Origin: Clostridiales bacterium
GTDB taxonomy: Bacteria; Bacillota; Clostridia; Christensenellales; Aristaeellaceae
DNA length: 37,880 nucleotides
Assembly: GCA_015056055.1 (NCBI GenBank)
Contig: SVHC01000027.1
Location: 1-37,880, forward strand
Direction of reading: 5' to 3'
The notes under the pieces are model-generated. The model was not told the origin of the DNA. It did not search any database and saw only the letters and a list, made by a program, of their open reading frames with translations. The translations under genes and the position numbers were made by a program. The first letter of the stretch is position 1; every line of letters starts with the position of its first letter. This document shows positions 12,027 through 31,356 of the stretch, piece after piece.

Positions 12027-13419
<1,393 letters not shown>

Positions 13420-29285: not shown

Positions 29286-29316
29286 ATGCTCTCTGCAAAT
29301 GCAGAGGGCATTTTTT
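29286..29316 (+). terminator. Terminator of the Nudix gene
   Basis: ATGCTCTCTGC / GCAGAGGGCAT with an AAAT loop (one G-T pair) and a run of T residues to 29316. Confidence 0.9.
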
Positions 29317-29356
29317 GTCGTTTCAGGCACGAAAAAGAGGCGTTATTAGCGAAATG

Positions 29357-29385
29357 TTTACAAATAGGGAAACTTGTGCTATACT
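29357..29385 (+). promoter_or_regulatory. Promoter of the MazG-like/guaA operon
   Basis: TTTACA (29357-29362), 17 bp, TATACT (29380-29385) preceded by TGC. The leader of about 75 nt shows no purine-riboswitch core. Confidence 0.75.
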
Positions 29386-29467: not shown

Positions 29468-29845
29468 ATGGCTGACAGGGAAGTTACGATACTGGAATTG
29501 AAGGAGCGCATCATGGATCTGTGCCGCGCCAAGAAGTGGGGAAAAAACGGCGACGGAATCCAGAATCCGCAGCACATGGCTATGGCAATGTCTGTGGAGA
29601 TGGGCGAAATGCTGGAGCATTTCCAGTGGCTGGAGCGCGAGGATGTCGAAGCTATGATGAACGGCGATGACCCGGCGCGCGTGGCGCTGATTGCCGAGGA
29701 ATTTGCCGATATGATGATATATGGGCTTCAGATTATGACGGTTCTGGGTGTGGATGTGTCCGATCAAATGATCCGGAAACTGGAAATTGTTCGGAACAGA
29801 CCGCTTAAGCCGACGCCGAAGGAAGAAAGGGAGGGTCGCCGATGA
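29468..29845 (+). CDS. MazG-like nucleoside triphosphate pyrophosphohydrolase
   Basis: A 125-residue all-helical enzyme of the MazG / RS21-C6-like superfamily that cuts (d)NTPs to monophosphate and pyrophosphate. The metal-binding pattern ExxE then ExxD is seen as E44-E47 (SVEMGEMLEHFQW) and E78-D81 (AEEFADMMIYGLQI). A tail rich in Lys, Glu and Arg ends the chain. The ATG at 29468 has GGGGAGAG just upstream; the frame from 29432 lacks a site. Its stop overlaps the guaA start by ATGA, so both proteins are made together; it may cleanse or tune the nucleotide pool tied to GMP synthesis, which is an inference. Confidence 0.9.
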   Translation: MADREVTILELKERIMDLCRAKKWGKNGDGIQNPQHMAMAMSVEMGEMLEHFQWLEREDVEAMMNGDDPARVALIAEEFADMMIYGLQIMTVLGVDVSDQMIRKLEIVRNRPLKPTPKEEREGRR

Positions 29846-31356
29846 GCAAAAATATGATTCTTGTGCTGGACTTTGGCGGCTCGCAGAGCCAGCCGATCGC
29901 CCGCAAAGTACGCAAGGAGAATGTTTACTGCGAAATTTTGCCCTATGATACGCCGATAAAGGAGATCGAAGCAAGATCTCCGCGCGGCGTGATTATGGTG
30001 GGCAGCGCGAAAGAGGTAAATGCGGAAACAAAAGGCGGATCCGCGAAAGATGTTTGCTCGCTGGGCGTACCGGTGCTTGCGCTGGGCTGCCCTGCGATGA
30101 TTGTGGCGCGCGATATGGGCGCGGTGATTCAGGAAACGGTGATTGAAAAACGAACGGCGCAGGTCTGCTTCGGGGCATCTCCTTTGTTTGCCGGTCTGAG
30201 CAGCGTCGAGCGTTATTTTGAGCGCGCCGATGCGCTGGATTTGCCGGAAAATCTGGAATGCATTGCCGCCAGCGAAGTGCCCGCAGCCTTTGCGGATGAA
30301 AGACTCAGGTTTTACGGTCTGCAGTTTTTTCCGGAAAACAACGATCCGGAAGGCTTTGCGATTCTGCACAACTTCTTGCTGGATATCTGTGGCTGTACGC
30401 CGGATTGGTCGATGGAAGCATTCGTGGAGCGCGAAATTGCCCGGATTCGCGGCGTTGTGGGCGAAGGACGCGCACTGATGGCCATTTCCGGCGGTATCGA
30501 CTCCTCCGTCTGCGCGGCGCTTATGCACAGGGCGATCGGCAGGCAGCTGGTGTGCCTGCATGTGGATAACGGCCTTATGCGCAAGGGCGAAACCGCACTG
30601 GTGGAAAAAATGTTCCGTGAGCAGATGGGCATCAACCTCATCTGTGTGGATGCGGGCGAGCGCTTTCTGGCGCGGCTTTCCGGCGTTACGGACCCGGAGG
30701 AAAAGCGCCGCATCGTCGGTGAAGAATTTATCCGCGTTTTTGAGGAAGAGGCGCTGAAACTCGGACAGATTGATTTCCTTGTGCAGGGAACCATCTATTC
30801 TGATGTGATCGAAAGCTACGGTGTGGACAATGCCCCCGTGAAAACGCAGAACAATGTGGGTAATCTTCCGGAAAAAATCGGATTTAAGAGCATTATTGAG
30901 CCTGTGCGCGAACTTTTCAAGGATGAGGTTCGTTCCGTCGGTCAGGTACTGGGTCTTCCCGCGGAACTTATCAACCGTCAGCCGTTCCCGGGTCCCGGCC
31001 TTGCCGTGCGCACGCTGGGTGAGGTCACGCCCGAAAAACTTACCATTCTGCGCGAGGCGGACGCAATTTTCCGCGATGAAATCGTTGCCGCCGGGCTGGA
31101 TAAGCGCATCTGGCAGTATTTTGTCGTGATGACGGATTGCTTTTCAGGCGGCGTGAAGGACGGCAGGCGCAGCTATGAATATGCTATTGCCTTGCGCGCG
31201 GTCAACTCGGTGGATGCCATGAATGCCACTGTATACCGTTTGCCCTACGATTTACTGGAACGCGTTGTTGCCCGGATAACATCGGAAGTTCCCGGCGTGA
31301 ATCGCGTGGTATATGATATTACCCCCAAGCCGCCTGCTACGCTGGAATGGGAATGA
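29842..31356 (+). CDS. guaA: GMP synthase with degenerate glutaminase domain
   Basis: A 504-residue enzyme converting XMP to GMP. The C-terminal ATP-pyrophosphatase and dimerisation parts are intact: SGGIDSS (216-222), VLCLHVDNGL-type strand, QGTIYSDVIESYG, NRQPFPGPGLAVRTLGEVT, and ITPKPPATLEWE at the end. The N-terminal class-I amidotransferase domain (1-185) keeps the fold (ILVLDFGGSQSQPIARKVR, GVPVLAL) but not the chemistry. In the alignment by eye to PVFGVCYGMQ, the nucleophile position is G82 with a cysteine one place later (C83, LGCPAM); the usual HPE is FPE (F163-P164-E165), so the catalytic histidine is missing; the oxyanion GGP is replaced by GSA. The enzyme is therefore probably ammonia-dependent. 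Coupled to the MazG-like gene by a 4-nt overlap. Confidence 0.93.
   Translation: MSKNMILVLDFGGSQSQPIARKVRKENVYCEILPYDTPIKEIEARSPRGVIMVGSAKEVNAETKGGSAKDVCSLGVPVLALGCPAMIVARDMGAVIQETVIEKRTAQVCFGASPLFAGLSSVERYFERADALDLPENLECIAASEVPAAFADERLRFYGLQFFPENNDPEGFAILHNFLLDICGCTPDWSMEAFVEREIARIRGVVGEGRALMAISGGIDSSVCAALMHRAIGRQLVCLHVDNGLMRKGETALVEKMFREQMGINLICVDAGERFLARLSGVTDPEEKRRIVGEEFIRVFEEEALKLGQIDFLVQGTIYSDVIESYGVDNAPVKTQNNVGNLPEKIGFKSIIEPVRELFKDEVRSVGQVLGLPAELINRQPFPGPGLAVRTLGEVTPEKLTILREADAIFRDEIVAAGLDKRIWQYFVVMTDCFSGGVKDGRRSYEYAIALRAVNSVDAMNATVYRLPYDLLERVVARITSEVPGVNRVVYDITPKPPATLEWE

Follow-up and report, generated by a model that had tools for sequence, protein, structure and literature searches.

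On balance, the guaA gene described here probably encodes a conserved pseudo-GMP-synthase, a re-purposed relative of GuaA and not a simple ammonia-fed enzyme. The gene lies in a window of 37,880 nucleotides (the whole stretch of DNA analysed) and belongs to a group of GuaA paralogues that we call class II; it is referred to below as the window paralogue. The features concerned are as follows.

29357–29385, forward strand: promoter-like sequence TTTACA-17-TATACT preceded by TG, upstream of the mazG-like gene and the window paralogue (consensus scan only)
29468–29845, forward strand: mazG-like gene (PF12643, E 6e-7; start picked by eye), its TGA stop overlapping the start of the window paralogue (ATGA)
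29842–31356, forward strand: window paralogue, a class II GuaA paralogue of 504 aa in a single open frame
29857–30396, forward strand: former glutaminase (class I GATase) domain, residues 6–185, with the triad lost (TIGR00888 under cut-off, PF00117 over)
30085–30090, forward strand: G82-C83, glycine at the position of the nucleophilic cysteine and a cysteine one residue on (alignments and codons)
30328–30354, forward strand: F163-P-E-N-N-D-P-E-G171, the class II loop E-xNDPDG in place of HPEVxHTxxG (alignment)
30421–31353, forward strand: ATP-pyrophosphatase and dimerisation domain (TIGR00884, 447.9 bits, over the cut-off of 338.75)
30838–30867, forward strand: lid motif VKTQNNVGNL (canonical IKSHHNVGGL), both lid histidines lost (alignment)

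The whole protein scored 575 bits against the NCBIfam model NF000848 for glutamine-hydrolysing GMP synthase (cut-off 400), and the closest solved structures were ordinary GMP synthases (5tw7, 7sbc, 3tqi and 1gpm). The C-terminal half exceeded the cut-off of its own model, guaA_Cterm, with 446–447.9 bits. Residues 6–185 gave 92–96 bits against guaA_Nterm (TIGR00888), under the cut-off of 172, which was passed in 14 of 14 control genomes; the N-terminal half passed PF00117 with 51.5 bits (cut-off 22.8). The TIGR00888 and PF00117 matches thus bear out the amidotransferase fold of about 185 residues given in a preliminary description of this DNA.

To read individual residues we used an alignment of 102 rows, made from the GuaA genes of 61 genomes including the window's own. 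Forty-four canonical rows served as intact relatives; L102, two pieces of L070, the relic L039 and 24 loci of a further group, class III, were left out of this set. The nucleophilic cysteine (column 82), the tyrosine after it (column 83) and the histidine of the HPE motif (column 163) are each present in 44 of 44 intact relatives, and are replaced by Gly, Cys and Phe respectively in the window paralogue. Only E165 of the triad is retained, and the domain reads G82, F163 and E165 in place of Cys-His-Glu. In class I GATases the GGP motif serves the oxyanion and the MSHGD-type motif binds glutamine; these read GSA (P56 to A) and FERAD (M126/H128 to F/R). Among columns at least 95% conserved in the intact relatives, the glutaminase half keeps 23 of 40. 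The dead glutaminase proposed in the preliminary description (Cys to G82, His to F163, GGP to GSA) therefore stands against the 44 intact relatives, and the loss of glutamine use, as predicted from these alignments, is well supported. The idea that C83 is the nucleophile moved by one place was rejected: in the alignment C83 falls on the tyrosine that follows the cysteine, no histidine is present at 163, and other class II proteins are variable at the position of C83 and seldom have cysteine there.

The synthetase half had been described as fully conserved. This did not hold: the lid HHN reads QNN, and 85 of 100 columns at least 95% conserved in the 44 intact relatives are kept. The lid motif IK(T/S)HHN has become VKTQNN (H336Q and H337N), and further departures include V436G, D441G, P320S and G326Y. 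The P-loop SGGIDS, K334, D321 and E324 are retained, and the C-terminal XMP loop KPPATIEWE is present as KPPATLEWE. A review calls the lid motif invariant and needed, and reports that in Plasmodium GMP synthase H388A and H389A greatly impaired activity with NH4Cl as well as with glutamine, acting through impaired adenyl-XMP formation (PMC10526850). The window paralogue, its lid histidines being lost, does not combine a complete synthetase active site with a non-working glutaminase. Its sister protein L040 (G001:C203), 71% identical, retains the lid HHN.

The same replacements recur throughout class II. Cysteine is absent from its column in all 49 class II proteins read, which have Gly (48) or Ser (one); the serine is among the first 30 rows (Gly 29/30), and the 19 further members all have Gly. 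These 19 came from 20 extra loci picked for spread of genera. One candidate, L180 (G460, E 8e-45), proved canonical on reading (Cys, His and HHN); locus counts are therefore given out of 49, and the threshold of 1e-44 was dropped. D168 is found in every class II protein (30/30, then 19/19) and R124 in 48 of 49 (29/30, then 19/19), and the group has its own loop, E-xNDPDG, where canonical GuaA has HPEVxHTxxG. One row of the first 30, L056, still has His at 163. The lid HHN is intact only in L040, and is missing from the other 48: L048 reads HHK with the preceding residues missing, and in the remaining rows the motif is deleted or altered. The C-terminal K496 is retained in 5 of 30 rows. The P-loop pattern [ST]GGxDS is kept in 42 of 49 proteins, being broken in 5 of the first 30 and 2 of the 19 (altered forms include DGTPES, TGGLHA, TGGLGS and SGGLLS), and at position 243, where 95% of canonical proteins have H, 80% of class II have T.

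In a maximum likelihood tree of the synthetase half (100 of the 102 rows, 312 columns) the 30 class II rows were split from canonical and class III rows with UFBoot 100. Because the tree has no root and long branches draw its midpoint into class II, a single loss is the simplest account of class II but is not proven. The shortest class II branches are those of the window paralogue and L040, and these two are the least derived members. Between them, dN/dS was 0.185 in the glutaminase half and 0.124 in the synthetase half, rough values since dS was 1.2–1.8 and near saturation; they indicate purifying selection on the window paralogue relative to its sister. With cysteine missing from 49 of 49 proteins and such selection acting, the loss of cysteine is not a chance event. 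Class II appears graded, its members running from near-enzyme to pseudoenzyme.

A class II glutaminase-domain profile was run over 309 genomes of the family and gave two score groups. It matched 187, 184 and 180 genomes at E ≤ 1e-46, 1e-48 and 1e-50, in 40 genera at each threshold, and 23 genomes gave none even at 1e-5. Class II is missing from some large genera; in g27, none of the 34 genomes with a match reached 1e-46. Among 396 genomes drawn from the order, 25 passed 1e-44, 21 of them in the same family and four in family f23; on reading, the f23 matches in G058, G437 and G482 were class II and that in G460 was canonical. The lowest-scoring match confirmed as class II by its residues is G058 (7e-50), and the counts from 1e-44 to 1e-50 are profile scores. 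No relative was found in a search of viral contigs, and a search of genome contigs returned one, L008, the canonical GuaA of another Clostridia MAG. In the available parts of open-licence papers on GuaA paralogues, dead glutaminases and ammonia-only GMP synthase, class II is undescribed.

The stop codon of the mazG-like gene lies inside the start of the window paralogue, which suggests translational coupling. The promoter-like site upstream of the pair was one of 10 found by the consensus scan in 3.8 kb, where 4.2 were expected. By eye, a hairpin followed by a T run can be seen at 29288–29319, between a NUDIX gene and mazG; it was absent from the consensus scan, and an Rfam scan of the window gave nothing over threshold. 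Neighbours were called with a simple codon-score script and profile matches. Of the 49 class II loci, 17 have a MazG-like gene upstream (immediately in 16, and about 0.8 kb away in L168); such a gene was found beside no canonical or class III locus within the available flanks, about half of the canonical loci having no more than about 1.5 kb upstream. Neighbours vary between subclades: a GNAT acetyltransferase lies within 4.5 kb in 21 of 49 loci, a CHAP/peptidoglycan-binding protein upstream in 10, IMP dehydrogenase upstream in two (L053 in G026 and L164 in G111) and a LarC-like gene in two. The IMP dehydrogenase of G026 is of the PRK07107 type. A link with nickel-pincer (Lar) genes may exist at the two LarC-like loci: class II locus L065 (G058:C3) follows a run of LarE-like, LarB-like and LarC1 genes (LarC1 identified by model, the other two by eye), and L054 (G028:C108) follows a diverged LarC-like gene. 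No GNAT gene adjoins the window paralogue within the window; a homologue with 36% identity is present at G000:C70. The preliminary description also set a gdhA of the same organism beside its prediction. The gene is real (12027–13388, reverse strand), but at 16 kb from the window paralogue there is no sign of linkage.

Thirty-seven genomes of the family, the window's included, were examined closely, and 29 of them hold class II. An intact Cys-His-Glu GuaA accompanies it in 19 of the 29, the sister species G001 among them, and also in G058, a class II genome of the other family. Four more of the 29 have class III and six have neither (G000, which is the window's genome, G020, G030, G033, G035 and G036). 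IMP dehydrogenase exceeds the cut-off in all six, by TIGR01302 in five and by NF005493 in G000 (900 bits), so XMP would be left without an outlet in these genomes unless it is handled by class II, by salvage or by a gene that escaped notice. G020, G030, G033 and G036 (90–99% complete) have IMP dehydrogenase, yet their only GuaA is a distal class II protein under the guaA_Cterm cut-off. L102 (G035:C167) is canonical in the tree, with G-H-D in the triad columns and a synthetase half over the cut-off, and is apparently a separate loss of glutaminase. L070 (G010:C32) is a second guaA of canonical type in two broken frames, with an intact copy elsewhere in G010. No GuaA was found in G016 and G054 (90% and 97% complete), which gave only matches of 19–22 bits.

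Searches of the window's assembly (2.83 Mb, 95% complete) by PF00958, guaA_Cterm and protein search found no second intact guaA, only the window paralogue and a broken scrap, L039:93-287. The scrap (G000:C80), near a contig end, is a guaA synthetase half of 62 residues with one stop and the sequence SGFVDS, and by eye is most like class III. The pyrG gene was not found in this assembly either (best match 19.7 bits, cut-off 463), although all 14 control genomes possess it. The one further species examined in the genus, G001, has its intact guaA beside pyrG, and because that neighbour is also missing from G000 it is unsafe to call the window paralogue the sole GuaA. pyrG adjoins canonical guaA at 5 of 44 loci (G001, G006, G021, G050 and G019), about half of the 44 having no more than about 1.5 kb of upstream sequence, and at 3 of 7 rows of the nearest canonical subclade. 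argS precedes pyrG-guaA in G001 and has other neighbours in G000. An assembly gap is the likely reason for the missing guaA, but with argS differently placed and the pyrG-guaA pair so infrequent it is not proven. A two-subunit GMP synthase in G000 was rejected, since no GuaA-type glutaminase subunit exceeded the cut-off there; four weaker amidotransferase matches gave 35–49 bits.

Class III comprises 24 loci (L071–L094) in 23 of the 61 genomes, with the glutaminase cut short or absent. The lid HHN and the C-terminal KPxxTIE(W/Y)E are intact in 24 of 24 rows, and the P-loop in all 23 rows that cover it. In 10 of the 61 genomes class III occurs without canonical GuaA, and four of these 10 also hold class II. 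None of the 10 has a GuaA-type glutaminase over the cut-off; nine have weaker amidotransferase matches. Class III is the sole GuaA found in four genomes that are 94–98% complete (G025, G044, G045 and G047). One of them, G045 (98% complete), has no IMP dehydrogenase over the cut-off (best 8.7e-7) and no guaA_Nterm match, and for want of that dehydrogenase is a poor fit to de novo GMP synthesis.

Several known systems can be compared. With E. coli GuaA (1gpm, 5tw7) the window paralogue has in common domain order, length, dimerisation domain, P-loop and KPPATLEWE, but it lacks the Cys-His pair, the oxyanion GGP, the glutamine-binding motif and the lid histidines. The archaeal two-subunit GMP synthase (6jp9, 2dpl) is an example of a synthetase part that stands alone, with no glutaminase fused to it; in the window paralogue, by contrast, the dead glutaminase is still fused, and no separate glutaminase passes the cut-off. 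Class III is of the same synthetase family and likewise has no working glutaminase that we could see, but differs in its truncated or absent glutaminase and its intact lid and C-terminal loop. PurF' belongs to a different amidotransferase class, Ntn. In crenarchaea it is a paralogue of a glutamine amidotransferase without the nucleophilic cysteine, kept beside an active copy, and its ammonia-dependent role is put forward only as a proposal (PMC3261824). NAD synthetases of one and two domains use the same adenylation logic while the presence of the glutaminase varies, and a table in the 2012 survey that covers them has guaA fused to glutaminase in 100% of 730 genomes and unfused in none (PMC3376133). 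Bacterial GMP synthase is portrayed as an enzyme of two domains, one of them a fused glutaminase (PMC10526850, PMC9312489).

The reading that we favour for the window paralogue, a re-purposed pseudo-GMP-synthase, would run as follows. Class II proteins lack the residues that would hydrolyse glutamine, and most also lack the lid and C-terminal residues that would serve XMP adenylation; they keep the dimerisation helices and, in 42 of 49, the pattern of an ATP P-loop. The window paralogue would then be a pseudoenzyme that forms dimers and binds nucleotides, its former glutaminase pocket now serving as a contact site for a ligand or protein. It may work with MazG, as other members may with the GNAT acetyltransferase, in control or clean-up of the nucleotide pool, a role other than glutamine-dependent GMP synthesis. 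A putative role as nucleotide-binding partner of MazG is our best guess. More specifically, and tentatively, it is possible that the pocket has been rebuilt (G82, R124 and NDPDG) as a nucleotide or effector site and that the dimer, produced along with a MazG pyrophosphohydrolase, senses or clears nucleotides, GMP synthesis being left to intact or glutaminase-free GuaA. That the new residues of the former pocket are conserved speaks for a gained role, and of the two options offered in the preliminary description, a glutaminase half that has gained another role fits best (G82, R124 and D168 conserved). Taken together, the lid, the trend in the group and the intact copies in relatives speak against GMP synthesis as the main job of the protein. 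Against a pseudoenzyme, the window paralogue, with 447.9 bits on guaA_Cterm, keeps SGGIDS, K334, D321, E324 and KPPATLEWE; for these reasons it could still be an enzyme. The six genomes with class II and IMP dehydrogenase but neither intact GuaA nor class III also count against the favoured reading, as do the differing neighbours of the subclades and the lack of a GNAT gene beside the window paralogue.

The other option in that description, an ammonia-only GMP synthase, would make GMP from XMP, ATP and free ammonia and carry the glutaminase half as a passive remnant. Its dead glutaminase was confirmed, but ammonia-only synthesis was not, given the lost lid histidines and the intact GuaA in 19 of 29 genomes, and we think it unlikely. 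A precedent exists in Plasmodium GMP synthase, where C89A abolished use of glutamine and left ammonia-dependent activity (PMC4673825). The 447.9-bit synthetase half with its P-loop, D321/E324, K334 and KPPATLEWE is in keeping with such an enzyme, as are the 10 genomes with class III, no canonical GuaA and no GuaA-type glutaminase over the cut-off. HHN is present in all 24 class III rows, however, and missing from 48 of 49 class II proteins, and both lid histidines of the window paralogue are replaced (QN), residues whose counterparts, mutated as H388A and H389A in Plasmodium GMP synthase, impair ammonia-dependent activity (PMC10526850). That the window paralogue is the only whole guaA seen in its assembly would also favour an ammonia-fed enzyme, but the missing pyrG makes that observation unsafe, and an intact GuaA is also present in the sister species. 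Some residual ammonia-dependent activity may persist in the window paralogue; strong activity is disfavoured because the lid histidines are lost. To judge by their residues, class III proteins look like a better fit to ammonia-only synthesis.

A quite improbable alternative is new chemistry, in which the ATP-pyrophosphatase half would adenylate a different substrate (MazG might supply, for instance, a non-canonical nucleotide in monophosphate form) and something other than ammonia would act as nucleophile. Retention of [ST]GGxDS in 42 of 49 proteins although the lid and XMP loops change, the change from H243 to T in most of class II, and the upstream MazG (17/49) and IMP dehydrogenase (G026 and G111) are consistent with it; the strongly altered P-loops of some members, such as DGTPES, are not. 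A decaying redundant gene (a pseudogene in progress) or an assembly error is very improbable: the long branches and scattered losses of distal members might suggest it, but conservation largely contradicts it, with single open frames in all of the first 30 members, purifying selection between the window paralogue and its sister, the same replacements in nearly all 49 proteins and a profile match in about 180–187 of 309 family genomes.

These results bear on annotation, since the whole-protein GuaA model takes the window paralogue as glutamine-hydrolysing on its score of 575 bits. They also indicate that one bacterial order has two ways out of the GMP synthase with a fused glutaminase, class II and class III. 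Class III makes ammonia-only GMP synthesis directly testable. Class II, a paralogue emptied of its catalytic residues, occurs by profile match in well above a hundred species; its members form a natural gradation between near-enzyme and pseudoenzyme, in which the purpose of a dead amidotransferase domain could be studied.
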